Shown here piece by piece: positions 28,734-57,715 of a stretch of 64,000 bases of DNA. Both the position numbers and the translations under genes were made by a program. The notes under the pieces are model-generated. The model had not been told where the DNA came from, did no database searches, and worked only from the letters and a program-made list of their open reading frames with translations. Position 1 is the first letter of the stretch. Every line of letters begins with the position of its first letter. Source of the DNA: Nitrospirota bacterium (lineage in GTDB: Bacteria > JACPQY01); the NCBI GenBank assembly GCA_016180645.1, contig JACPAV010000002.1, forward strand, positions 238,628 through 302,627, written 5' to 3'.

Positions 28734-28792
28734 GTAGGGGAGGACCTTCAGGTCCTCCCAAGAGGAGGGAGCAGCCAAGGCTGCTCCCCTAC
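28734..28792. repeat. GTAGGGGAG twin-hairpin element, copy A
   Basis: 59 bp: ends GTAGGGGAG / CTCCCCTAC; hairpin words AGGACCT-TC-AGGTCCT and AGCAGCC-AA-GGCTGCT. Between convergent genes. Left flank AATACGTCCGGAAA (28711-28724) resembles the outer arm of copy E. Confidence 0.85.
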
Positions 28793-29454: not shown

Positions 29455-29513
29455 GTAGGGGAGCATCTTCAGATGCTCCCTCTTGTCGGGAGGGTCTGAA
29501 GACCCTCCCCTAC
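29455..29513. repeat. GTAGGGGAG twin-hairpin element, copy B
   Basis: 59 bp, stem words AGCATCT and GGGTCT in the reverse order to copies C, D and F, so inserted the other way round. Preceded by ACAGAATGC as in D and F. Confidence 0.85.
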
Positions 29514-31108: not shown

Positions 31109-31167
31109 GTAGGGGAGGGTCTTCAGACCTTCCCGGCGAGAGGGAGCATCTGGAGATGCTCCCCTAC
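31109..31167. repeat. GTAGGGGAG twin-hairpin element, copy C
   Basis: 59 bp between the two amt genes. Stem words GGGTCT-TC-AGACCT and AGCATCT-GG-AGATGCT; slightly more worn than D and F. Confidence 0.85.
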
Positions 31168-36042: not shown

Positions 36043-37407
36043 TCATTCGGCCATTTTCCGATCATATATTTTGCGCACACTCAACATGAACTGCCTGAGC
36101 CTGTCAAGAAATCTATCCCCGTCCTTCGGCTTGTCAGGCCAGGTTGATGCTCGCACCAAAGCCGAATAGTTCATCTTCGAAGGAGAGATTTGGTTGCCCG
36201 CCTTACCTTCCACGAGGCGAACCCGCCCAATGATTTTCTTGAGTTCATCGTACGCCTCGAGGAGGGATTCCGCCTCACCGGCGCTCAACCACCCAATGGA
36301 CCCGAGCGCGCGAATCGCGCCGCGCGTGGACCGCGTCCGCAATTCCGGATGCTCATGACCGAAAGCCAGCTGGCCCGCCTGGGAGAGGAACTCGATGTCC
36401 ATCGTTCCCCCCCGGCCAAATTTCAAATCGACAAAAGAAGATCCGATGGGCGCGTAGTTCTTCTCCACCAGTAGCTTCATCTCATGAACTTTGCGGAACA
36501 CTCCCGATGGCTCGCGCTTTTCGTACACCATCCCGGAAATTTGAGATTTGAAATTTGAGATTTGAGATTTGGCCAGAATCCGGGCCTTGATGAGGGCCTG
36601 CTTCTCCCAAAGCTCGGTGGACTCCCGGTGGTATTTCAGGAATCCTTCCTGCGAGATCACCAGAACGCCCCCGCGGCCGTGCGGTCGCAGATCGGCGTCC
36701 ACCGCGTACAGGAGGCCCGAGGGACCCAGCGTCGAGATGTCGCGTATGAATCGCTGGGCCGACCGGATGACCTGCTCGCCATTGTCTGTGTTGTGGAGAA
36801 AAATCAGATCGAGATCCGATTCGTACGTCATCTCGGCCGCGCCGAACTTGCCCATCGCCAGGATGAAGAAGTCCTTCTCCGACATGCCCGGGCCGCGGTA
36901 CACGCGGAGCGCCTCCTCCACGAGCGCATCCGCGGCAAGGGTGATGGCCTCTTCAACCTCCCTTTGAGCGAGCTGCCCCATCAACTCACGGGCAAGGATT
37001 TCGATGGTCAGCACCTGCCGGAGGACTTGGAGAGCCTCCATTTTCTCGGCGGCAGGCTTCTTCGCGATGGCGCCAAGCCCTGCGTCAATTCGGTCCCTCC
37101 AGACGGGCGCCGCTCCGGAGGGAATGAATGCGGAGAGAACTTTCGCAGGTTCGCTCAGGACGAAGCGGGAGATCGGCCACGCCAGACCGAGGACATACGC
37201 GAGGGCCTTGTCATCGATCCCCTGGGGAATGCCGCCCCGCTCCGCTTCGCTTCGGGGACGGCGATCGGAATAGACATGGAGATCCCCGCCGCCGCGTTCC
37301 ACGCTCTGAGACAGCGTTTCCCAATTCCGCCTCGCCTGCGCCGGGTCGGGCGAGGATTCGAAGATTTCGCCGGGTGGAAATCGGACGATGAGATCCCCCC
37401 AGCGCAA
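36043..37407 (-). CDS. glnE: GlnE C-terminal half (adenylyltransferase part), separate frame
   Basis: 454 aa. Nucleotidyltransferase motif MGKFGAAEMTYESDLDLIF with Asp198 and Asp200 intact, then the PII-responsive helical region. This equals the AMP-adding half of GlnE (established for E. coli). The only upstream start is TTG 37407, directly preceded by an in-frame TGA, with no ribosome binding site; it is in a different frame from the N-terminal half. An 11-residue run, SQISNFKSQIS (281-291), is encoded by a heptamer repeat and looks inserted. May be a working split subunit or a decaying gene. Confidence 0.8.
   Translation of the reverse strand: MRWGDLIVRFPPGEIFESSPDPAQARRNWETLSQSVERGGGDLHVYSDRRPRSEAERGGIPQGIDDKALAYVLGLAWPISRFVLSEPAKVLSAFIPSGAAPVWRDRIDAGLGAIAKKPAAEKMEALQVLRQVLTIEILARELMGQLAQREVEEAITLAADALVEEALRVYRGPGMSEKDFFILAMGKFGAAEMTYESDLDLIFLHNTDNGEQVIRSAQRFIRDISTLGPSGLLYAVDADLRPHGRGGVLVISQEGFLKYHRESTELWEKQALIKARILAKSQISNFKSQISGMVYEKREPSGVFRKVHEMKLLVEKNYAPIGSSFVDLKFGRGGTMDIEFLSQAGQLAFGHEHPELRTRSTRGAIRALGSIGWLSAGEAESLLEAYDELKKIIGRVRLVEGKAGNQISPSKMNYSALVRASTWPDKPKDGDRFLDRLRQFMLSVRKIYDRKMAE
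36540..36572. repeat. Heptamer tandem repeat inside glnE
   Basis: GAGATTT-type words repeated about four times, keeping the glnE frame open on the minus strand. Matches the word at 23.70 kb. Confidence 0.8.
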
Positions 37408-37410
37408 TCA

Positions 37411-37474
37411 CGCGGGCTGAAGCCCGCGGCTACCACAGAGGTGGAACCCAGGTAGGCGCAGGCTTGAGCCTGCG
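37411..37474. repeat. Two hairpins of the GGTAG/CTACC family between the glnE halves
   Basis: CGCGGGCT-GA-AGCCCGCG (37411-37428) followed by GCTACC, and GGTAGG leading into CGCAGGCT-TG-AGCCTGCG (37457-37474). The second matches the 17.15-kb element almost base for base. Here the two halves are arranged outward, with 22 bases between CTACC and GGTAG. Confidence 0.8.
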
Positions 37475-37511
37475 TCCGTTCTGCGCCGAGGCTTCATCTG
37501 GGCACTCGTGC

Positions 37512-38948
37512 CTATTCTCCGGCGTTGGGGGGATCGAAATCCCCGAGGAACCGCTCGAAGGCCTCGCGGGAGACGGTGCGGTAGACCTGGAGATCCTCTT
37601 CGAAATCGTCCAGCTTCTCCGCCGCGGCGCCGGTTTTCTTCAATCCATAGCCCATGGAGCGGGCCAGCGTCAGCCGCGCGGCGTGATCGGTCTTCAGGTG
37701 GTAGGTCTGCGACTCCTCCTCCATCTGGAGGTGCGTTTCCAGTCGGCGGAGAAACAGGTAGGCCTCCTTGAGCTGATCCCGCTCGCCCGGCGAAATGTAC
37801 TGCTCTTTGGAGAGTGCCTCCAGCGCCTTGAGCGTCACGGGCGTTCTCAGAGTCGGTTTCTTGCCGGCATTCAGGATCTGATGCCCCTGCACAAAAAATT
37901 CAATGTCCCGGATCCCCCCCGCCCCGGTCTTCACATTCCATTTCCCGGGCTGTTCGCGCAGGCGGGCCTGCTCATCTTTGATCTTCTTGACGCTTTGGAC
38001 GTCACCGAGGCTGAGGTATTTCTTGAATACAAACGGCTCCACGCTCTCGAGGAATCGCGCCCCGAGCGCCAGGTCTCCGGCGCAGGGCCGCGAGCGAAGC
38101 AGAGCGAAACGCTCCCACGGGAGGCCCCAGGTTTCGTAGTAGAGTTCGGCGGCATAAACGGAATTGACCAGCGCGCCGGAGGCTCCCTCCGGTCTCAGAG
38201 CAAGATCCACGCGATAGAGGAACCCCTCCTCGGAGGTTTTCTGAATCCGCGTGAGAAAGTCCTGGGCGATCCGGGCGGCGATTTCCTGCATCTCCACCGG
38301 CGTGGGCGTATCCGGATCCTGCCCGGCGTAGACGAACTGGATGTCTACATCCGAACTGTAATTGAGTTCCTGGCTGCCCAGTTTCCCCTGTCCGATGATC
38401 GTCAGCCGGGGACGATCGCTCTCGGCGACATTCGACGCGAGTACGGCCTCCTCCAGGATCCAGTCCAGGATCGAGTCGGCCAGCCCGGAAAGCTCCGAAA
38501 GAATCGCGTCGTACGGGCCGATTTCGGCCAGGTCCTTGATCGCGATGCGAAGCAACTCATCGTACTTGAACCGAAAAATGGAACGTTCCCGTCCTTCCGG
38601 CGCTCCTCCTCCATCTCCGGCGAGAGCCCTTAACCTCGCGCGGTAGGCATCCGGCGCGCGGACCTCCGCAAGAGCCTTGGGCTGCGCGAGAATGGCCGCG
38701 GAGGATGGATTGCGAAAGAGATACCGGGAAAGGGACTGGGAATAGCCGAAGACCCTCACCAGATTCTGCCGGCCAGGGAGGGGGAGCGAATCCCACGCTT
38801 CCGCTCCTTCTTTTTCGGAAAGAAAGCGTTCCAAATTCGCCTCGGCCAATTCCGGATCGGCGGCGAATTTCTTCAGATCGACAACGAACCCTGGCGCGGA
38901 CACGCCTTGCTCATAGGCCAGCGAATCATGGATGTCAACGCGCTCCAT
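37512..38948 (-). CDS. glnE: GlnE N-terminal half (deadenylylase part)
   Basis: 478 aa. Starts normally with ATG 38948 and carries the first GlnE nucleotidyltransferase domain: GQGKLGSQELNYSSDVDIQF with Asp200 and Asp202, then GGIRDIEFFVQ and the helical DUF294-like bundle ending FLGDFDPPNAGE-stop. In E. coli this half removes AMP from glutamine synthetase. It stops at 37514, before 105 bases of repeat sequence and the separately framed C-terminal half. Upstream lies the 59-bp palindrome, which has TATAAT on the minus strand at 39024-39019. Confidence 0.88.
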   Translation of the reverse strand: MERVDIHDSLAYEQGVSAPGFVVDLKKFAADPELAEANLERFLSEKEGAEAWDSLPLPGRQNLVRVFGYSQSLSRYLFRNPSSAAILAQPKALAEVRAPDAYRARLRALAGDGGGAPEGRERSIFRFKYDELLRIAIKDLAEIGPYDAILSELSGLADSILDWILEEAVLASNVAESDRPRLTIIGQGKLGSQELNYSSDVDIQFVYAGQDPDTPTPVEMQEIAARIAQDFLTRIQKTSEEGFLYRVDLALRPEGASGALVNSVYAAELYYETWGLPWERFALLRSRPCAGDLALGARFLESVEPFVFKKYLSLGDVQSVKKIKDEQARLREQPGKWNVKTGAGGIRDIEFFVQGHQILNAGKKPTLRTPVTLKALEALSKEQYISPGERDQLKEAYLFLRRLETHLQMEEESQTYHLKTDHAARLTLARSMGYGLKKTGAAAEKLDDFEEDLQVYRTVSREAFERFLGDFDPPNAGE

Positions 38949-38965: not shown

Positions 38966-39024
38966 TATAATCGGTGACAGTATACTGTTATTCACTGTCA
39001 TAGAGTATACTGTCACCGATTATA
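38966..39024. repeat. 59-bp long palindrome, copy 1
   Basis: Perfect 21-base arms (38966-38986 and 39004-39024; outer end TATAATCGG, inner end GTATACT) around a 17-base spacer. AT-rich against its surroundings. Between divergent glnE and the phosphatidyltransferase operon, where it also places TATAAT on both strands. Confidence 0.92.
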
Positions 39025-39083
39025 CGCGATGAAGGCATGCGCTTGTCCTGTCCGGAATCGGTGGCGTAGAATCTCTGATCGAG

Positions 39084-39653
39084 GTGACGAACACCATCGG
39101 GAGATACATTCTCATCAGGCACATTCCGAATGCGATCACTTTCCTCAGGCTGCTGCTGTGCATCGCCTTGGCGGCCTTTCTCATCCGTCAGAACTATCAG
39201 GGGGCACTCTTCGTTTACATTGTCGAGGAAGTTCTGGACCAGGCGGACGGGAAGCTCGCCCGGCTCCTCAGCGCCGGATCCGAGACCGGCCGAGTTTTCG
39301 ATCCTTTCGTGGACACCTTAGTCCACCTCACTGCGTTTTCCGGCTTGCTCACCATGGGCGCCATCCCTCTGTGGATGTTCCTCGTGATCCTCTTCCGCGA
39401 ACTCCTCATGGGCTTCCTCCGTCTTCTGGCCTCGGTTCAGGGAGAAAGGATCGGTGCCCATTGGCCCGGCCAGGCCAAGGCGCTTCTTCACGCCGTGGCG
39501 ATTGTTTTTTCGCTGGCCACGCTGGCTTACCCCCGAGAGTACGGGCTTGGGATCTCCGGTTGGATGGCCGTAGCCGCCTCCGCAAGTGTCGCCTCCGGGG
39601 CCATTTATCTCTGGGTGTATCGGCTCGTCCTTCGAAAGGCCTTTGCGACGTGA
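39084..39653 (+). CDS. CDP-alcohol phosphatidyltransferase (first)
   Basis: 189 aa from GTG 39084. The family motif D-x2-DG-x2-AR-x8-G-x3-D-x3-D is complete (DQADGKLARLL, then GRVFDPFVD), with about five transmembrane helices around it. Joins a CDP-activated lipid to an alcohol such as glycerol phosphate or inositol phosphate, at the inner membrane. Looks PgsA-like in size; the alcohol acceptor is not readable. Its TGA overlaps the next gene's GTG as GTGA. Confidence 0.88.
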   Translation: MTNTIGRYILIRHIPNAITFLRLLLCIALAAFLIRQNYQGALFVYIVEEVLDQADGKLARLLSAGSETGRVFDPFVDTLVHLTAFSGLLTMGAIPLWMFLVILFRELLMGFLRLLASVQGERIGAHWPGQAKALLHAVAIVFSLATLAYPREYGLGISGWMAVAASASVASGAIYLWVYRLVLRKAFAT

Positions 39654-40648
39654 GAGATGTCGCAATCCGGTTGGATGAAGAAACTTCCGCCGGAGCCGGA
39701 CTTTGGATTTGGAATCAGACCGTATTGGAACGCTTGTTGAGACTTTGTCGCGATTCGGGAGTTGCCGTTAGGACGGGAGCCCACTCTCCGGGTGATCTCC
39801 CCGCCCATCTCGTTTGCTCCACCCGGTTCTTCAAAGCCTATCTGGAGTCCGGGCAGTCTTTCGATCCATTCGCCTGCTCAACGCGTTTTGCTTTTGATTT
39901 GTGCTCGGATCCGGGATCCGTCCGTCGCGCCAAGCGACGGCTCTTCGCGGATGCGAAAAAGCCGACGGATGGCTGGGTGTCCAGAAATCTCAACGCGAAA
40001 CTTTCGATCCCGCTGTCGCGGATCCTGGCGGAGCTGCCGCTCCACCCGAATGGGATCACCTTCCTGAACGTCCCCTTGGGCATTGCCGCTGCATGGCATG
40101 CCGCCCGTCCCGGATACGGGGCGGCGGCGACCGCCGGCCTCTTGTTCCAGTTCGCCTCCGTATTCGACGGGTGTGACGGGGAAATCGCCCGGACAAAACT
40201 TCAGGTCACGAAACTCGGCGGTTGGCTGGATACGATGGTTGACAATCTGGCCTATCTCCTTTTCTTTCTTGGGGTGGGCATCTGGCAGGCGCAGCAGAAA
40301 GATCAAGGCGTCTACCTCCATGCCATGGGAGTGGCCCTAATGTTCCTCGCCGGCTCACTCATTCTTACCTACGTCGGCATGAAACGAATGGGCACTGAAT
40401 CTCATCACGAATACCGACAAGCCCTGGATCGGCTCTTCCGAGATCGCGCTCCCCTGAGGCTCTTCCATCGGATCTCCTTTCTCAGCAAGCGGGAGAATTT
40501 TGCGTTGGGGATCTGCCTCCTCTGTCTGCTGAATCTCCGAGAAGTCGTGTACTGGGGTGTGCTGGTCGGCCTCGGTCTCTATTCCGCCGTGGTTTGCTCC
40601 TCCTTCCCGGCCTTGATCGAGAGGCTTGGCAGGGGACGGGAGCGATAA
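39650..40648 (+). CDS. CDP-alcohol phosphatidyltransferase (second), DIPP-synthase-like with N-terminal domain
   Basis: 332 aa from GTG 39650, overlapping the previous stop. The motif is DGCDGEIARTKL then GGWLDTMVD, complete. Before it, KKPTDGWVSRNLNAKLSIPLS and LHPNGITFLN resemble the linker of bifunctional inositol-phosphate cytidylyltransferase/DIPP synthases. The first ~90 residues (RDVAIRLDEETSAGAGLWIW) have no usable nucleotidyltransferase motif, so that half is lost or changed. Membrane enzyme with about six helices; product may be an inositol-type phospholipid or soluble diester. Acceptor unknown. Confidence 0.82.
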   Translation: MRDVAIRLDEETSAGAGLWIWNQTVLERLLRLCRDSGVAVRTGAHSPGDLPAHLVCSTRFFKAYLESGQSFDPFACSTRFAFDLCSDPGSVRRAKRRLFADAKKPTDGWVSRNLNAKLSIPLSRILAELPLHPNGITFLNVPLGIAAAWHAARPGYGAAATAGLLFQFASVFDGCDGEIARTKLQVTKLGGWLDTMVDNLAYLLFFLGVGIWQAQQKDQGVYLHAMGVALMFLAGSLILTYVGMKRMGTESHHEYRQALDRLFRDRAPLRLFHRISFLSKRENFALGICLLCLLNLREVVYWGVLVGLGLYSAVVCSSFPALIERLGRGRER

Positions 40649-40655
40649 GCAGCAC

Positions 40656-42131
40656 ATGCCCAAGATCATCTTCATCGACGCCCCGACAACGCCCCAGGAG
40701 CGGATCGGGAAGCTTTCACGGATCATCAATCTGAGTCGGGACCGCCCCCATCTCGGTATCCTGACCCTTGCGGCAGTGGCCCGTCAGAACGGGTGGAACG
40801 CGGCGGTCGTCGATCCATACCCGTTCCAGTGGACGGATGAAGCTATCGCGACGCAGGTACAAGAGTTCGGTCCGGATATCATCGGAATCTCCTCCCATAC
40901 CTTGGGCGTCTTGAATGGGAACCGGCTGGCCGGGCTGCTGAAGGAGCGCTTGCCGGGTGTGCCGATCCTCAACGGCGGACCTCACGCCACCTCGGCGCCG
41001 GCGGACACCCTCCGTGAGTGCGGGAACTACGACATTCTCGTCATCGGCGAGGGCGAGGAGACGCTGCTGGAGTTGCTGAAGGCGCTTCCCGGCCGTCCGT
41101 TGGAGGAGACGCTAAGCTCCATCAACGGCATCGCGTTCCGCGCGGCGGACGGCCGCATCGTGCTTAGCGGGCACCGGGATAACACGCAGCCTCTCGACTC
41201 ACTTCCCATGCCGGCTTGGGATCTCCTGCCACAGTATCCTTTTCTTTACAGCCCTTCTCTGTCGTCCGGCGCAGGGAGTCGCCCGACAGGCTCCCTCTTC
41301 ACCACGCGGGGCTGCCCGTGGAATTGCACTTTCTGCGACCGGGGCGTGTTTGGAGATCGACTCCGGGCTTTCTCCGCCCGGGCCGTGATGGACCAGGTCC
41401 TCCACCTGTACCACGTGTACGGCATCCGGGAACTCATGTTCGGCGATGACACGTTATTTGTGGACCGGGACCGGATGTTCGAATTGGCCGAGCTCCTGAT
41501 CGGCGCGAAGCTGGATCTCCGCTGGGAGTGCATGGCGCGGGTGGTGGATGCCAACGACAAGCTCTACGCGGCCGTGAAACGGAGTGGGTGCTTTGAAATC
41601 TCGTACGGGATCGAGAGTGCCGTAGACGAGGTTTCCCAAAACGTCGCCAAGCCTCTCACGCGCAAGATCGCCCGGCGCGCAGTCGAAATCACGAAGAAGG
41701 CCGGTATTCGGGCGCGCGGATATTTCATCTTCGGTCTGCCCGGGGACACGGAGCGGACCCTTCAAGAGACGGGACATTTCATTCTCCATTCCGGCTTGGA
41801 CGATGCCGCCATCTTCGCCTGCACGCCGTACCCCGGATCGGCGCTCTACGAAAGGGCGCACGAGTACGGTACGTTCGAGAAGCGGTGGGACAAGATGAAC
41901 AATGTGGACATCGTGTTCGTACCCCACGGACTCACGCCCGAGAAGATCGAGGCAATGAGGATGGCCGTGATGCGCAAGTTCTACGTCAATCCCCGGTTCA
42001 TGTGGAATTGGGGGCGAAGACTCGTCCGGGACAACGGCTGGGCGGAACTCGGTCGACGTGCCGGTGTGTATACACGCTTTTTCGGCCATATGCTGGGGGA
42101 GTTTGTGTCGGGCCTAGGGAGGGGGGCATGA
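40656..42131 (+). CDS. B12-binding-domain radical SAM enzyme
   Basis: 491 aa from ATG 40656 (MPKIIFIDAPTTP), seven bases after the preceding stop. Residues about 1-150 form a cobalamin-binding-like Rossmann domain (DRPHLGILTLAAVARQNGW, ILNGGPHAT, GEGEETLLELL), lacking the DxHxxG motif, as many of this group do. The SAM iron-sulfur motif is CPWNCTFC. GDDTLFVDR and YFIFGLPGDT complete the barrel. Family members methylate or rearrange lipids, antibiotics and cofactors. Placed after two phospholipid synthases, so a lipid substrate is plausible (inference). Confidence 0.88.
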   Translation: MPKIIFIDAPTTPQERIGKLSRIINLSRDRPHLGILTLAAVARQNGWNAAVVDPYPFQWTDEAIATQVQEFGPDIIGISSHTLGVLNGNRLAGLLKERLPGVPILNGGPHATSAPADTLRECGNYDILVIGEGEETLLELLKALPGRPLEETLSSINGIAFRAADGRIVLSGHRDNTQPLDSLPMPAWDLLPQYPFLYSPSLSSGAGSRPTGSLFTTRGCPWNCTFCDRGVFGDRLRAFSARAVMDQVLHLYHVYGIRELMFGDDTLFVDRDRMFELAELLIGAKLDLRWECMARVVDANDKLYAAVKRSGCFEISYGIESAVDEVSQNVAKPLTRKIARRAVEITKKAGIRARGYFIFGLPGDTERTLQETGHFILHSGLDDAAIFACTPYPGSALYERAHEYGTFEKRWDKMNNVDIVFVPHGLTPEKIEAMRMAVMRKFYVNPRFMWNWGRRLVRDNGWAELGRRAGVYTRFFGHMLGEFVSGLGRGA

Positions 42132-42147
42132 AAGGGAAGCTAGAGCG

Positions 42148-42241
42148 TCTAACAGAATGCGTAGGGGAGGGTCTTCAGACCCTCCCGACAAGAGCGAGCA
42201 TCTGAAGATGCTCCCCTACGAATCGGCATTCCGTCAGAGTC
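42148..42241. repeat. GTAGGGGAG twin-hairpin element, copy D, with outer arms
   Basis: Core 42161-42219 (59 bp). Flanks CTAACAGAATGC and GCATTCCG form outer arms. Almost identical over about 90 bases to copy F. It lies between the two radical SAM genes. Confidence 0.88.
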
Positions 42242-42278
42242 TCTTGGCAGTTTTCAGTCATCCGTCATCAGCCCATAC

Positions 42279-43409
42279 ATGAAGAATTGGATTTTGGGAC
42301 GGATCGTGCATGGATTGCTCCGTCTCCTGTCGATGGCTCCAGGACTGTCGGCTCGGCTCATGGGCCTGGTCACCGGAAACAAGAAGTTGAAGGCCTTTGC
42401 CGCCCGGCCCCTGCTCGTCCGCAGGGCCGCCGAAGCCCTCCTGCATAACGGCGTGCTCCTATCGCAGCTCAACGTCACCAACGCCTGCAACGAGAAATGC
42501 CCCATGTGCAACCTGTGGGAAGAGGGCACGCGGATGCCGCTGGACCAAGTCAAGCTGTGTATCGACCGCATCGCCGAAATGGGGTCTTTCATCCTCACGA
42601 TCACGGGAGGTGAGCCGTTCACGCATCCGGATATCGGAGAGATCATTGATTACGCGCGCGACAAGCCGTTCTTCCTCAACCTCAATACCAACGCAAGTCT
42701 GCCCCTGAAAGTGTACCAGAGGGCCGACCTTGACAAGATCGATCTGGCCATCGTCTCATTCCATGCGCTGGACGAGCTCAAACTGGAAAGAATTACGGGC
42801 GTCAGGGGTACTCTGGCGAGAGTTGTGGACACCCTGAGATACTTCCGGGACGAAACCACGATGCGCGTCGTCCTGAAATTCGTCATTCAGCGGGACAATC
42901 GCGGGGAAGTCGAAAAAGTACAGGAGTTCGCCGACCGCGAAGGATTCACCGTCGAGTATCACCCCGTCATGGTGGACGGCGCCAACCGGCCCGTGACGAC
43001 GGACAAGACGGAGCTTCTCCTCGGGCAAGAGGAGTACATGGATACGCTCCTTCGAATCCGTGAGATCAAGAAAACGGGCCGCAATTTCGAGTCTTCCGTT
43101 TATTATGACTTTTGCTTGAAGGCCGCGAGGAGAGGGTCTTGGGGATGGGGTTGCGATGCCGGCATCAACTACCTCAGCGTGTATCCGGACGGCCGGTTCG
43201 GCATATGCAAGGACGTCTACACGTCGGCGAAGATCACCGACGTCGATTTTCCAGACCGGTACCGCAGCGGGGCGTTTCAGGAGGAGATGAGGGCGCTACG
43301 CGAATCTTGCTCAGGCTGCAACTGGAGCTGCTACGTCACCGCCTCGAAGTTGGCCGGGCTGGCGCGGAACCCCGATCTTCGGGAATTCCGCCTCCTGCAG
43401 GCGATCTGA
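42279..43409 (+). CDS. Radical SAM/SPASM protein
   Basis: 376 aa. An amphipathic N-terminal stretch (WILGRIVHGLLRLLSMAPGL) may sit on the membrane. The iron-sulfur motif is CNEKCPMC, then ITGGEPFTHPD; the C-terminal Cys set (CDAGINYLSVYPDGRFGIC, CSGCNWSC) suggests a SPASM/twitch auxiliary cluster. Such enzymes often modify peptides or sugars/lipids. It ends with a TGA that abuts a 59-bp palindrome. Separated from the B12 radical SAM gene by repeat copy D, so co-expression is likely but not certain. Confidence 0.87.
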   Translation: MKNWILGRIVHGLLRLLSMAPGLSARLMGLVTGNKKLKAFAARPLLVRRAAEALLHNGVLLSQLNVTNACNEKCPMCNLWEEGTRMPLDQVKLCIDRIAEMGSFILTITGGEPFTHPDIGEIIDYARDKPFFLNLNTNASLPLKVYQRADLDKIDLAIVSFHALDELKLERITGVRGTLARVVDTLRYFRDETTMRVVLKFVIQRDNRGEVEKVQEFADREGFTVEYHPVMVDGANRPVTTDKTELLLGQEEYMDTLLRIREIKKTGRNFESSVYYDFCLKAARRGSWGWGCDAGINYLSVYPDGRFGICKDVYTSAKITDVDFPDRYRSGAFQEEMRALRESCSGCNWSCYVTASKLAGLARNPDLREFRLLQAI

Positions 43410-43468
43410 TATATTCGGTGACCGTATACTATTATTGATGTAAATAGAGTATACTGTCACCGAATATA
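43410..43468. repeat. 59-bp long palindrome, copy 2
   Basis: 21-base arms (43410-43430 and 43448-43468, one mismatch) around 17 bases, the same size and sequence plan as copy 1. The outer ends read TATATTCGG / CCGAATATA instead of TATAATCGG / CCGATTATA: both arms changed together, keeping the pairing. It fills the gap between the stop codons of two convergent genes exactly. Confidence 0.92.
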
Positions 43469-46400
43469 CTACGGCGCGCCGGCCAGGGGCACTTCGTAGA
43501 CGACGGCCCCGTTCGTTCCCACGGTGATGCGGGTGGTTGCGCCGACCGTCCGGAGGCTGAGGGTGGAGTCCTGAGCCGAGACGCCCAGATTGAACGGATA
43601 GCCCTCGTTCCCACCCACCAAGGTGCCGGGAGCCACGCCGTCTGTCGAGCTGCACGAGGTCTCACTCTCGTTGTCGCAGAGGGCCTCCACCGCGTAGAGC
43701 TTCCCTGAATTGGAGATGAGGTATACGATCCCATTCACGATGAGGGGTTCGCGCAGGGGGACGCCGCTCTCGAGCATTTTCGGAAAGTTTGCGTTGCAGG
43801 TGGCGCCCTGCGTACAAGGTGCGTTGCCGGTTTGGCAGACACAATAGAGCCGGCCTCCCACGTCAACGGAATAGACTTCGTCCGTGAAGCTCTGCCAATA
43901 GATCTTGGCCCCCACGGCGATGGAATTGGAAACGGAGTAGGGCGTGATCAGGTCCGAGTAGGCGTCGGGCGGGATGGCCGAGCAGGCCACGTCGTTTTCA
44001 GTGTTTTGCAGCATGTACAACTTGGCCGAGGCCCCGCCCATCGTGCCGAAAAAGAGTTTGCCGAAACTGCCCGTGATCCACGCCTGGATCTCGCCCGCCA
44101 AGCCGCTTCGGCTACAACCGACCGCAACGGGAGCCGTGGGCGGCTCCAGCTTGACTCTGTGGATCGAACCGGTGGAGCAGTTGCTTCCAGTGTGCATCCA
44201 CTTCGGGTTCCACGTACCTTTCACGGCCGGCGTGGAGGTGACGCTCACGCTCGCACCCGTGCATCCGCCGAGATTGACGATCTGTTCACGGAAGGTTGTG
44301 TCGCCGTCATAGGCATCTTCGTTTTCGACCCCGAATAGGCAGGTGGTTTTGTTCGCTCCTGAGTCCGACGTACCGCCGAAGTAGACCAGCTTGTCGTCCA
44401 CCACCGGGCCTGTGGTGGCGACCACCGGCGATACCTTGCAGGTTCCACCCGACGTCTCCAGGACCTTGGGCCAGCCGGCCGAAACGGAAAGGGGAGACGC
44501 CGGCGTGCCGTCCGGGTCGCCGGTTTCGGTGTTCTGGATCTTGAAGACTTTTCCCGCATCAGTCGTCACGAAGAGGTAGTCGTTCGTTCCCGAGTCGTAC
44601 CAAGAATAGGGAGCGCCCACGACGCTTCCGCTTCCCACGCCCAAGTCCAATGTTTGGACGAGAGAGAAAGAGGAATTGAGCAGATAGATCTTGTTCCCGT
44701 TCGCGGCCACGTAGGTACCGATGTAGACGGCCCCCGTATCGACGGCGGAGAGGGGGAAGCCGCGCACTTTCACCGCGTCGCCCTCGGCCCCCTGGAAGCT
44801 CTCATGGGCCTTGAGCGCTGCGGCACAGATCTGCGTGGTGTTGGTTTCAGGGGTTCCCGCGTTATTTACGGCCCGAACGGTGTAGCAGTACTTTGTGTTG
44901 GCCGAGAGCGACTGGCCGTTGTCCGTGCAGTTGCCGTCGCCGGTTCCATCATCGTAGCACGCACTCGTGGAGCCATCGACCAGAAGGGATCCCGGGGCGC
45001 CGCACGAGGGCGTGCATCGGTAGAGCACGTGCTTCTGGATGCCGGACTCGCCATCGGAGCCCCCGGTCCAGGTCAACTTGAGCGTGCGGTCGCCGGATTC
45101 CACCACCGCGAAGGAGGTCGGCGACGTCGGCGCCGTGGTGTCGACCTTGTACTCATTGAGGCTCGCGCAGCCGGTCCCATCCGTGCAGTAGGTCACGGAG
45201 TTGTTGACATTGTCCGTCACGACATAACGGTATTGGTAGCAGCCGGTGGTCAGACCCGTGTCGCTGACCGGCGAAGAACCCGGATCGGTGGAGATGGTGG
45301 ACCACGAACCGTACCCGCTGCAACTCCCGGCGGAGAGCGTCCCTGACCGCCGCTGAACGAGACGGCCTGCCACGCCGGACCCGCCATCCGTCGGGTTGAC
45401 GAAACTGACGGATGCGCTTGTTGAGGATGTGAAAGTGTTTGAATAGGAGACGGAGCCACCGGAAGGAGCCGTGTTGTCATACGTGTAGGTGAACGTGCAG
45501 GTGGTTGAGTTCGCGGCCTTGTCGTATACAGTCATTGTGGGTGTAGCTGAAGCCGTGTCCGAGGTCCACGAGTAGAGCTTGTTGAATGCGGCGGGTTGGA
45601 TCACATTTGCAGTGGCGGTCTGGAGGGCGGCAGGAAAGTTCACATAGGCCACACCGGCAGTCGCATCGGCCGCACCCGAATTGACGGTGAAATCGCCGGC
45701 CACCGCGTTGTTGTAGTAGACCGTGGCCCCCGTAGCATATTGATAGGCGGCGGACGTGCCCTCGGTGATTGACACGGAGCAGGTGGGAATCGTCCAGTCC
45801 GCACCGTACTCCTTGGTCATCGTGGCGGTGTTGTTGACGTGATCGGCCAGATCGAGCTTGACATCGCACAGGTTGGAACCCTGGTCGCGGCAGTTCAGCC
45901 CCGCCCCAACGGACACGGAGTAAGTCCCAAAGGGAGCACGATCGGCCCCGTTGACGGTGACCGTGACATTGCTGGTGACCGTCCGGGTGCTCGCTCGGAA
46001 CGCACCGGTATGATCGAAATACGTGGAGTTGTTGTAGAGCGTGTAAGCCCATCCATTCAGTGTAACGTTATCGAGGCAAACGGTGGTGGCATCCACGGCG
46101 AGCGGTACCCATTGATCGCGCTGGGCGGGGAAGGAACCTTGAGAGCGGCGAGAACATGTGCCATCCGTGCCCCACGCGATGCTGTTCGCGCCCCAATAGG
46201 CGCGCTGCTCCCAATCGGCGTCGTTGAATTGGAGCATGACTTCGGTGGGTACGCTCGTGGATGGAACGTAGATCCACTGGTACAGCCAACCGCCGCTGGG
46301 AACGGTGATCGTTTCGCTCGCTCCGGAGAAATAGTGCTGGTGGGGATTGCCCGCATTGTTGTCGTAGTTGGCCTGCGTGCCGGTGTATTTCGTCGCCCCG

Positions 46401-48886
46401 CTCCACGCCCACGTGTCTCCTTGCGTGGCCCCGGGTGGGAGGGCGTCCTCGCCCCATCCCAAGTTGTCGTAGTCCAATCCGCTGACGTTGAAATTGGTTT
46501 TGTGCCAGTAGCGCAGAAGCTCGGCGTAAATGTCCGGCGTGGCCGAGTCGACCGCATCGGTTCGCACCACACATCCCTTTCCATAGCAGTGCATCGAGGG
46601 ACCGCTCTGGTAATCGGCTTCTTCGTACAAACGGTAGAGGCGCGGGTTATTCGTGCATTCGCTGTATCCGGTGGTCATGCCCGTGGCGGAGGTGGGCCGA
46701 GTATCCGTGCCGGCGGTGGCCGCCGAGTTGGGCACGAGATTTGATCCATCAGACGACTTGTTCCGAGTCTGGGCGGATCCGGCCGAGGTGATGTCCACAC
46801 AGACGCGGTCGTCCCCCGCGGTGTTGAGGTCTGCCGCTGCCCCGCAGGAGTAGTAGAAATTCCAGCCCCCGGCCTCAAACCAGAACCCACCCGCATTTGC
46901 GTATTGCCGGATGAGGTTGAGCACCGTCTCGCCGGACGTTTCTGGATAGTATTCGCCGTACGGGTTCAGGATGGCTTTGTAGGCCTGCATTTCGGCCAGG
47001 GTGTCGATCTGGGCTGCGGTAACGGCGGTGACATTGAGCCCACGCTTCTTAAGTTCGTCCTGCCACCATGAGGAGCACGAGGCTCCGGCGGCGCCGGTCC
47101 ATGAGCAGGAGCAGCTTCCGTCGCTCACCACTGCGACCGTATCGGCCCCGATCGGCGCGATGATCGCGGTGGAGGGCACGGTCTTGTCGATATAGTAGAC
47201 GTTGCTGGTCTGAGTCGACTGCATGTTCCCAACATCGTCCACGCTGTAGTAGCAAATGCGACGACGGCACGTGCTCCCGGCGGAGCAGGTGGCGCTTCCG
47301 GAAGTGCCGCTGTTCCAACCCGAGCAAGTGGCGCTCTGCCCCGGGCAGGCGGAACCATCCTCAACTTGCGACCAACAGGTATAGCCAACGGCTCCCGCGA
47401 TCGTGCCGCCGTTGTCGCCGGGCCGCGTGTCGGCCGGAGTGAGAGTGAAGGCCACGTTTGCATTCCCCCATGCCTGCCCATTGGGGGCGATCGAGGTGGT
47501 CGGCTCGATCCAGTCCACGTAGGCGTAGACGTGCATGCCATCCACAAAGAAATCGAAGTCCTCGGTTCCGCCGCCAATGTTGCGGAATCGGATCTTGAAC
47601 TCCGGGCAGAACTTGTGGGTGGTCGTGGCCCGCTGCTTGAAGTAGTCCTTCATGTACAGTGCGGCACCCGACGAATAGTTGACCCAAGTCGTCTTGTCCA
47701 CGGCGATCGCGCCGCCGGTGCCGGACTCCACGCAGGTGAGCCCGGCGCCGTCACTGGGCCCGTCGTTGTTCATGGCGTGGACATAGCCCGACTCGGGCGC
47801 CACGTCGGATGCGTCCGACCCCCAGCCCCCATCGCAGAACGGAATGCCGGCTTCCCCCGAATTGAATGTCGTCAGCGTTCCATCGCACGCCGTACCGTCG
47901 TTGTTGTTGTCCTCGTGTAGGTACATGAGCACTGTGAAGAAATCCCTGTTGCCGTCCCAGTCTTCGCGCCGGAAGCGGTATCGCCACTGCATGGAGGCGT
48001 CGTAGATCTTGGAATAGTCGAGGCCCGTTCCGTAGAGCGCCCAGTCGATATCGAACGCGCTCCCCTTGATCCACGCGGTGCCCTGTGCGTTTTCGTTGGT
48101 GCAGCACTCCTTGAAGTCCGGCTGCCAAATGACTTCGTCTTCGCCCCAGGTGCCATCTTGGTAGTACTCTCCCGTTCCGGGATTGACGGTCCTCCATTGG
48201 TTGGCGCGGTAGGTGTCGTCCCATGTGCCCGCGTCCGTCCACCAGCCGCACTGCCAGCCCTCGTCCCACCAGAAGCTGCAAATGGCCTGACCGTTCGATC
48301 CCTCGCCCGTTTGAATATCCTGATTGTCCATCGTGCCGGCAAAGGCGAGATCCACGCGGTTGTAGCTCAGGTTGAGGAACTTGATCTCGTGGAAGCCGTC
48401 GCCGGAGTCATCGCCGCAGAAATCGTAGCCTTCGCAATCGAGATACGACTTCACATTCTGCTCCCATTGGATCACGCCGCCTTCATCATTGTAGATGTAC
48501 AGGCGAGCCCAGTAGGTGTAGCCGCTGTCGTTCGCCGTGTCGTCTTCGTTTCGGAATCGCCAGTCGCGCGGATCGTCGAAATCACCGTCCGCGAAGCAGC
48601 CTCCAGGCAGATCCTGCACCCCGCCATCGTCGCACGTCACGTCGATGAGAACCGTGGTAAGGTAGGCGCAGTTGTTGCTCGGGCAGCCGTCCGTCCGCCA
48701 CGTGCGCTCCACCCAGCTTGAGGTTCCGGTATCCCAATACCCCAGGCCCCAGAGCGTGTCGGTGTCATACGTATGCTGGAAGCCGTATTCCAGGTAGACC
48801 TTGCTTACACTCGCCGCCTGAGCCGCCGAGGCGGCTCCGAGCGCCAGAGCGATCACCACGAAGAGGGATGCGAGTCGCGGGTTCAT
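43469..48886 (-). CDS. Giant secreted multidomain protein
   Basis: 1805 aa. Signal peptide at 1-24 (LASLFVVIALALGAASAAQA). The N-terminal third is rich in Trp, Tyr, Asp and paired Cys. Near 582-690, DTVAVVSDGS and AYKAILNPYGEYYPETSG resemble a glutamine-amidotransferase-like (ThuA-type) fold. About 1250-1360 is a fibronectin type III domain (TSPTSFAVVESGDRTLKLTW). From about 1365 to the end, repeated YVAANGNKIYLLN and VYLISNSGKLYAVEAL units look like a PQQ-type beta-propeller. No anchor or autotransporter end is seen. Probably exposed to the surface or exported, for adhesion or degradation (inference). Its start overlaps the lipoprotein stop as ATGA. Confidence 0.75.
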   Translation of the reverse strand: MNPRLASLFVVIALALGAASAAQAASVSKVYLEYGFQHTYDTDTLWGLGYWDTGTSSWVERTWRTDGCPSNNCAYLTTVLIDVTCDDGGVQDLPGGCFADGDFDDPRDWRFRNEDDTANDSGYTYWARLYIYNDEGGVIQWEQNVKSYLDCEGYDFCGDDSGDGFHEIKFLNLSYNRVDLAFAGTMDNQDIQTGEGSNGQAICSFWWDEGWQCGWWTDAGTWDDTYRANQWRTVNPGTGEYYQDGTWGEDEVIWQPDFKECCTNENAQGTAWIKGSAFDIDWALYGTGLDYSKIYDASMQWRYRFRREDWDGNRDFFTVLMYLHEDNNNDGTACDGTLTTFNSGEAGIPFCDGGWGSDASDVAPESGYVHAMNNDGPSDGAGLTCVESGTGGAIAVDKTTWVNYSSGAALYMKDYFKQRATTTHKFCPEFKIRFRNIGGGTEDFDFFVDGMHVYAYVDWIEPTTSIAPNGQAWGNANVAFTLTPADTRPGDNGGTIAGAVGYTCWSQVEDGSACPGQSATCSGWNSGTSGSATCSAGSTCRRRICYYSVDDVGNMQSTQTSNVYYIDKTVPSTAIIAPIGADTVAVVSDGSCSCSWTGAAGASCSSWWQDELKKRGLNVTAVTAAQIDTLAEMQAYKAILNPYGEYYPETSGETVLNLIRQYANAGGFWFEAGGWNFYYSCGAAADLNTAGDDRVCVDITSAGSAQTRNKSSDGSNLVPNSAATAGTDTRPTSATGMTTGYSECTNNPRLYRLYEEADYQSGPSMHCYGKGCVVRTDAVDSATPDIYAELLRYWHKTNFNVSGLDYDNLGWGEDALPPGATQGDTWAWSGATKYTGTQANYDNNAGNPHQHYFSGASETITVPSGGWLYQWIYVPSTSVPTEVMLQFNDADWEQRAYWGANSIAWGTDGTCSRRSQGSFPAQRDQWVPLAVDATTVCLDNVTLNGWAYTLYNNSTYFDHTGAFRASTRTVTSNVTVTVNGADRAPFGTYSVSVGAGLNCRDQGSNLCDVKLDLADHVNNTATMTKEYGADWTIPTCSVSITEGTSAAYQYATGATVYYNNAVAGDFTVNSGAADATAGVAYVNFPAALQTATANVIQPAAFNKLYSWTSDTASATPTMTVYDKAANSTTCTFTYTYDNTAPSGGSVSYSNTFTSSTSASVSFVNPTDGGSGVAGRLVQRRSGTLSAGSCSGYGSWSTISTDPGSSPVSDTGLTTGCYQYRYVVTDNVNNSVTYCTDGTGCASLNEYKVDTTAPTSPTSFAVVESGDRTLKLTWTGGSDGESGIQKHVLYRCTPSCGAPGSLLVDGSTSACYDDGTGDGNCTDNGQSLSANTKYCYTVRAVNNAGTPETNTTQICAAALKAHESFQGAEGDAVKVRGFPLSAVDTGAVYIGTYVAANGNKIYLLNSSFSLVQTLDLGVGSGSVVGAPYSWYDSGTNDYLFVTTDAGKVFKIQNTETGDPDGTPASPLSVSAGWPKVLETSGGTCKVSPVVATTGPVVDDKLVYFGGTSDSGANKTTCLFGVENEDAYDGDTTFREQIVNLGGCTGASVSVTSTPAVKGTWNPKWMHTGSNCSTGSIHRVKLEPPTAPVAVGCSRSGLAGEIQAWITGSFGKLFFGTMGGASAKLYMLQNTENDVACSAIPPDAYSDLITPYSVSNSIAVGAKIYWQSFTDEVYSVDVGGRLYCVCQTGNAPCTQGATCNANFPKMLESGVPLREPLIVNGIVYLISNSGKLYAVEALCDNESETSCSSTDGVAPGTLVGGNEGYPFNLGVSAQDSTLSLRTVGATTRITVGTNGAVVYEVPLAGAP

Positions 48887-52117: not shown

Positions 52118-52576
52118 CGGCGGAAGATTAGCGCACTTGGATGCGGCTTCCAACTCCGCTCCGATGTTCGCGCGCCTCGCCGGGACTCGACGGATGCGTA
52201 ATGGGGTCTCTGCGCCGCGAATGGAACGGTCATCATGACTTGCGCCGCAGGCTGCGCGCCTTGAGCGCACTAAGAATGCGTCCGGAAATGCCCAGAAATG
52301 CCAATTGAGCCGGTTCGTTGTCTGGGAGCAAGCAGCGTGTAGGGGAGCAGCTTTAGCTGCTCCCAAGGAGGGAGGACCTGAAGGTCCTCCCCTACGGCAG
52401 GTGAGTTTTCGGACGCACTCTAAGGAATTCGGGTTGGGTTCTTCCAAGTGCCGACCCTTCGACAATCCGCCTGAGGCGGACAGGTTGAGCGGAACAGGTT
52501 TCGCGCAACGGTCGAAACCGCTCGTGGTGAGCCCGTCGAACCACGCCGGATCGAAAGAAGTCTATTGTCGGAACGC
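52118..52576. other. Intergenic stretch with repeat copy E
   Basis: 459 bases with no believable gene. Repeat core 52339-52395, an outer inverted repeat around it (AATGCGTCCGGAAA near 52273-52291 and TTTTCGGACGCACT near 52404-52419), CCGCCTGAGGCGG (about 52471-52483) and a GTCGAACCAC-bearing stretch near 52536-52545. Confidence 0.6.
52339..52395. repeat. GTAGGGGAG twin-hairpin element, copy E
   Basis: 57 bp; hairpin words AGCAGC-TTTA-GCTGCT then AGGACCT-GA-AGGTCCT, which is copy A inverted. Surrounded by a larger, imperfect inverted repeat. Confidence 0.85.
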
Positions 52577-57627: not shown

Positions 57628-57715
57628 CTAACAGAATGCGTAGGGGAGGGTCTTCAGACCCTCCCGACAAGAGGGAGCATCTGAAGATGCTCCCCTACGA
57701 ATCGGCATTCTGCTA
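57628..57715. repeat. GTAGGGGAG twin-hairpin element, copy F, with outer arms
   Basis: Core 57640-57698 (59 bp), outer arms CTAACAGAATGC and GCATTCTGCTAG. Nearly identical to copy D 15 kb away. Confidence 0.88.

Follow-up and report, generated by a model that had tools for sequence, protein, structure and literature searches.

Palindromes bracketing a phosphatidyltransferase/radical SAM operon are very probably dispersed terminal-inverted-repeat dimers of a Y1 transposase encoded elsewhere in the genome

Y1 transposases of the TIRYT/TIRtron type, with terminal inverted repeats (TIRs) that are also dispersed as repeats, were described by Di Nocera et al. (2013; PMC3733652); for some of these systems, not for all, the TIRs recur as dimers and the motif GGGGWSAS was noted (PMC3733652). 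Subclass 2.1 of the TnpA-Y1 proteins was described by Quentin et al. (2018; PMC6006769), and REPINs and RAYTs by Bertels and Rainey (2011; PMC3116915) and Nunvar et al. (2010; PMC2817692). Here we analyzed two copies of one palindrome in a Nitrospirota genome. On the evidence below, they are very probably dispersed non-autonomous TIR dimers of a REP-type Y1 (HUH) transposase (TIRYT) encoded elsewhere in the same genome. The window, that is, the whole 64,000-nucleotide stretch of DNA that was analyzed, has the following features at and around the two copies.

37512..38948, minus strand: N-terminal half of glnE (Pfam PF03710 and PF08335); copy 1 lies 18 bp from its start codon
38966..39024, no strand: copy 1, putative TIR dimer; arms 38966-38986 and 39004-39024, spacer 17 nt; divergent genes on either side
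39084..39653, plus strand: CDP-alcohol phosphatidyltransferase, PgsA-like (PF01066, E 3e-29)
39899..40648, plus strand: second CDP-alcohol phosphatidyltransferase (PF01066); start uncertain, open frame from 39029
40662..42131, plus strand: B12-binding radical SAM protein (PF04055 and PF02310)
42157..42223, no strand: GTAG-type REPIN within the block; a separate repeat family, outside the TIR family
42279..43409, plus strand: radical SAM protein (PF04055); stop codon abuts copy 2
43410..43468, no strand: copy 2, putative TIR dimer; arms 43410-43430 and 43448-43468; convergent genes, both stop codons abutted
43469..48886, minus strand: 1,805-aa ORF, no Pfam match; its stop codon adjoins copy 2 on the opposite side

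Both 59-bp palindromes reported in the first-pass annotation were present, each with a 17-nt spacer. The 21-base arms given there for the pair describe copy 2, in which one mismatch leaves the arms 95% complementary; in copy 1 (arms of 21 to 22 nt), complementarity is 100% and extends over 22 nt. The compensated change of an outer base between the copies was also borne out (TATAAT/ATTATA in copy 1, TATATT/AATATA in copy 2), and copy 2 indeed fills the space between two stop codons exactly, TGA at 43407-43409 and a reverse-strand TAG at 43469-43471. Copy 1 lies 18 nt from the start of glnE and 60 nt from that of the PgsA-like gene. Folded as single-stranded DNA, the two copies gave z scores of -8.2 and -8.6 against 200 shuffles, of which 0/200 were as stable, and the RNA form of the hairpin was predicted at -29 to -32 kcal/mol. 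A scan of the whole window matched no Rfam family. The outer ends of copy 1 (38966-38971 and 39019-39024) each match the hexamer TATAAT perfectly when read toward the inside of the element, and no promoter-like site was called at these hexamers.

The 4.4 kb between the copies had been said to hold only the phosphatidyltransferase/radical SAM genes; those genes are there, and so is the GTAG-type REPIN at 42157-42223. In the sole same-family genome (G001), no clear orthologue turned up; the best match to the B12-binding radical SAM protein has 29% identity. Classical GTAG-type REPINs (GTAGGGGAG...) were seen in the window at 28734-28792, 29455-29513, 31109-31167, 42157-42223, 52339-52395 and 57636-57702; their arm has 365 matches genome-wide, with the Y1 gene at G000:C5:35110 among them (G000 being the genome under study). 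glnE itself reads as two minus-strand ORFs (36043-37407 and 37512-38948), and the stretch between them (37408-37480) holds a third repeat pair of GTAG type, GGTAG[CG]CGC[AG]GGCTT; a repeat resembling it also occurs near the Y1 gene at G000:C5:105800. The 1,805-aa ORF matched nothing in Pfam and NCBIfam searches, and by eye it has an apparent signal peptide and fibronectin-like stretches.

How widely is the palindrome dispersed? Examining the genome through pattern searches and extracted stretches, we found 98 matches to the arm at ≤2 mismatches in the 4.7-Mb assembly, 44 of them exact, compared to 7 with a reversed-pattern control; the weaker matches among the 98 include chance ones. We extracted 32 distinct dimers (33 rows, one copy being a nested triple-arm form), most with spacers of 16 to 17 nt, plus solo arms. 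The neighbors of the dimers genome-wide are unrelated genes. Four dimers with other arm types (GGGACA...), at G000:C2:309705, C7:49447, C35:28989 and C38:6937, are perhaps remnants of other TIRYTs.

The same arms flank a Y1 transposase gene (G000:C28:71678-72397, minus strand; within L033:13374-14096). Arm, gene, inverted arm and a second inverted arm 45 nt further on make up one site (L033:13358-14170), and the arms on either side of the gene are identical at 20/20 nt, lie in inverted order and are unrelated to GTAG REPs. The 240-aa protein matches Pfam Y1_Tnp (E 1e-9) and, at a score below the model cut-off of 80, NCBIfam REP_Tyr_transpos (E 5e-20, 71.8 bits). The HUH residues (N71-H72-x-H74) and Y132, in the motifs NHIH and YVERNP, are invariant across 16 homologs. 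Its AlphaFold model has a pLDDT of 87, and a fold search returned as the best PDB match 4er8, a structure of the Escherichia coli REP transposase in complex with a REP hairpin (E 9e-10); a PDB search by sequence gave no match. Members of TnpA-Y1 subclass 2.1 carry a helix-turn-helix in a C-terminal extension; the protein has a length of 240 aa versus a median of 238, and the model contains two C-terminal helices (188-200 and 207-217).

Our transposase search of the genome, which covered the Y1 family only, revealed six further Y1 genes. Three of these (two on C34, one on C32) have TIRs starting TGGGGTCAAG, the one on C37 has TIRs starting GGGACGTTGTTAG, and one on C5 sits among GTAG REPs. Two Y1 genes (L051 and L052; G000:C34:50.7-55.5 kb) lie in tandem, each with its own TGGGGTCAAGTCTTGA inverted repeats. 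We also observed that the TIR arm is often doubled on one flank of a TIRYT gene, most commonly the 5′ flank, with the two arms 26 to 49 nt apart (L103:2232-2289, L109:1348-1421, L106:1430-1473, L125:1429-1480, L120:1427-1482 and L129:1407-1473); the doubled arm is possibly an autoregulatory site or a dimer remnant.

We then asked about other genomes. A GTDB-wide scan revealed the palindrome in 35 stretches from Proteobacteria, Omnitrophota, Acidobacteria and others. Homologs of the transposase at ≥45% identity were present in 7 of 15 palindrome genomes tested versus ∼3 of 115 genomes selected without regard to the repeat. The TIRs of these homologs are variants of one pattern, and the dispersed dimers track the local variant in the same genome. 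The cleanest cognate case is G041, because it was found via the protein and not via the repeat: its TIR is GGGGACACCATACCTAATTC, and it has 7 dispersed dimers, GGGACACCATACTTAATTC, with the arm GGGACACCATAC. Genome G063 has the TIR AATTCGTGACAGTATACTTATT and 10 dimers, and G064 has two dimer types, with 4 dimers of the GGGACAGTATAC type, which resembles the TIR of L116. The core across genomes, as read by eye, is approximately G[GT]GACA[CG]NNTAC[CT], and unrelated genomes carry variants of it in dispersed dimers. Among 17 genomes without a Y1 match, dimers were found in 0/17, and the reversed-pattern control likewise gave 0. Searched as inverted pairs, the looser pattern GNGACANNNTAC gave dimers in 11/386 genomes, the genome under study included, and the reversed control for this search gave single matches in two other genomes. 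On a tree, most of the transposases with this TIR pattern cluster in a single group of 22, within which branches are weakly supported.

The search for a recognizable TIRYT in the palindrome genomes G066, G068, G069 and G072 found none, perhaps owing to incomplete MAGs or gene loss, and an automatic TIR search at the close homologs L104, L105, L106 and L117 returned no TIR. Dimers in G039, G249 and G405 read like AAAAAGGGGACAGGCTACTTTTT...AAAAAGTAGCCTGTCCCCTTTTT, their A- and T-tracts resembling those of a bidirectional intrinsic terminator (L243:1501-1543, L245:321-362, L248:1501-1545 and L253:1501-1546).

Evidence for movement came from one locus. In G063, an element lies between two convergent genes (L078:4461) and is absent from four relatives, with the genes ∼5 nt apart in G143 and abutting or overlapping in G150, G153 and G156. 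Either the element was gained in G063 or it was lost in all four relatives, and gain is the simpler explanation. This is the one clean empty site, and it comes from G063, none from the genome under study; a second attempt within the G063 family, at locus L072, gave no clean junction among the alignments listed, and the relatives in the G064 family are too distant for such a comparison. The first-pass annotation had offered a mobile cassette as one possibility; mobility of the repeat itself is supported by the dispersed copies, the arms at the Y1 transposase gene and this empty site in another genome's relatives.

The stems covary. Summed over 7 outer-stem positions in the own-genome copies, the covariation was reached in 0/5000 permutations, and other genomes behaved alike; in contrast to the outer stem, inner loop positions had no covariation. 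Outer-stem covariation may reflect selection for the hairpin or mutational correction of quasi-palindromes.

The association of arms and gene, and the covariation of dimers with cognate TIRs, suggest that the dimers are moved by the TIRYT of their own genome. We infer cutting, movement and any transcript effects along the following lines. In single-stranded form, as on the lagging-strand template for instance, the two arms of the repeat would fold into one long hairpin, and the transposase would cut at the hairpin foot via its catalytic tyrosine. The released DNA would then be joined at a new site without target duplication. Copies would persist mainly at gene 3′ ends, above all those of abutting convergent genes, where harm is small, and there they may serve as a shared transcript end.

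The positions of the dimers revealed a strong bias. Convergent settings account for 21 of the 33 dimer rows, compared to 11% of all gene junctions and 17% of the bases in intergenic DNA (P = 2e-9; own-genome background of 464 kb, our own ORF-based gene caller), and for 21/36 dimers versus 18/188 background junctions in other genomes. At convergent dimers in the genome under study, the element leaves a median of 12 nt of other DNA between the two stop codons; the leftover is ≤25 nt at 17/21 of them versus 14/62 native convergent gaps (Fisher 3e-6), and the element contains the stop codon for 11 of the 42 gene 3′ ends at such junctions. Such tight gaps leave little room for another terminator. 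Were insertion simply proportional to gap length, this fit would not result; it calls for targeting, for selection or for a later loss of spacer. A tight 3′-end fit is already known for REPs: at convergent genes, GTAG/CGTC REPs lie mostly ≤20 bp from both 3′ ends and often supply the stop codons (Di Nocera et al. 2013; PMC3733652), and our data extend it to the TIR family.

These data raise the possibility that the dimers are kept, or preferentially inserted, as shared bidirectional 3′ ends (a terminator or insulating hairpin), with mobility as their origin only. This concerns function rather than origin and is compatible with the TIRYT explanation. The convergent bias and its replication in other genomes, the short leftovers and the stable RNA hairpin all point toward it, yet we consider it unlikely. 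The stem is not followed by a U-tract, and a terminator scan gave no match at the repeats; a canonical intrinsic terminator was ruled out, with no T-tract after the stem. Purging of promoter-near insertions would likewise enrich 3′ junctions, the same tight fit has been described for GTAG/CGTC REPs, and about a third of the copies, copy 1 included, lie in codirectional or divergent gaps. In a further small set with crude ORF calls, 3/13 dimers were convergent and the bias was not seen. The broader proposal, that TIRYT dimers prefer, or are selected at, abutting or overlapping convergent gene ends and so supply several phyla with shared bidirectional transcript ends, we regard as doubtful.

Could the palindrome instead be a dyad operator, bound by a regulator common to a regulon? 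The conserved core GTGACAGTATACT and the two-fold symmetry would suit such a site, but most copies lie downstream of both neighbors, away from promoters, an operator does not require the outer-base compensation or the single-hairpin architecture, and from genome to genome the core changes in step with the local transposase's TIR. We consider an operator very improbable. To a similar degree, we do not favor a conventional DDE-transposase MITE, although the short, dispersed, inverted-repeat form would suit one: the gene between the arms encodes a Y1 HUH protein, and no target-site duplication was found for the own-genome copies over 450 alignment offsets (best z, 2.6). A DDE-type MITE was set aside given this absence of excess flank identity.

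The least probable reading, to which we give almost no credence, is that the phosphatidyltransferase/radical SAM operon travels in a mobile cassette defined by the pair (a composite transposon or a pair of recombination sites), as the occurrence of one palindrome at each edge of a single operon had suggested. The check set beforehand, a genome search for the arm, gave ∼32 dimers scattered among unrelated genes, the outcome that had been named as refuting; neighbor pairs ≤4.5 kb apart were as expected at random (2 observed versus 1.3; P = 0.38), 75% of random placements contain one such pair or more, and no shift in G+C or composition was found across the block. A recombination-site pair or cassette was rejected on copy number, scatter and neighbor spacing. 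The bracketing of one operon by two palindromes is chance, and it falls on the two ends of that operon, a divergent gap upstream (copy 1) and a convergent gap downstream (copy 2).

With these dimers, the little-studied Y1 transposases of the TIR type gain a well-resolved family, in which the arms track the local transposase across unrelated genomes, one site is empty in relatives, target duplication is absent and the stem covaries. The pairs of arm, dimer and cognate protein offer a concrete substrate. Do TIR-type Y1 proteins cut the whole-dimer hairpin, a question left by Di Nocera et al. (PMC3733652)? Does the 3′-3′ bias come from targeting or from selection? The same substrate allows both to be asked.

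Among known systems, IS200/IS605 elements share the Y1 HUH transposase and the lack of target duplication. The system here differs in having inverted repeats in place of subterminal hairpins, in lacking an identical autonomous element present in multiple copies, and in having many non-autonomous dimers for one gene copy; by the tests applied, it is not an IS200/IS605 element. A bidirectional intrinsic terminator would also place a hairpin exactly between converging stop codons, but here there is no U-tract, the near-identical arms are dispersed, and there is a link to a transposase. REPINs and RAYTs are closer, with an inverted pair of transposase-associated repeats across intergenic DNA, a preference for gene 3′ ends and a cognate transposase gene flanked by the repeat. 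However, the arms here end TATAATCGGTGAC and have no GTAG/GTGG/GTRG foot, and a single arm has no hairpin of its own, the whole pair folding as one. Membership of the TIR dimers among GTAG REPINs was ruled out by the missing GTAG foot and the single whole-element hairpin. The closest match is with TIRYT/TIRtron systems, which likewise have a RAYT-like Y1 transposase of ∼240 aa with HuH and Y---NP motifs, long terminal inverted repeats around the gene in place of GTAG REPs, and TIRs that recur as genomic dimers. The family arm, GGTGACAG, is one base off the published GGGGWSAS, and the dimers here are variants of G[GT]GACA[CG]NNTAC[CT], where the published text, as we read it, gives only GGGGWSAS. 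That motif does fit an own-genome copy (C35:28987) and the TIRs of most homologs, the closely related ones included. The system fits TIRYT/TIRtron TIR dimers and adds a family of a known type.
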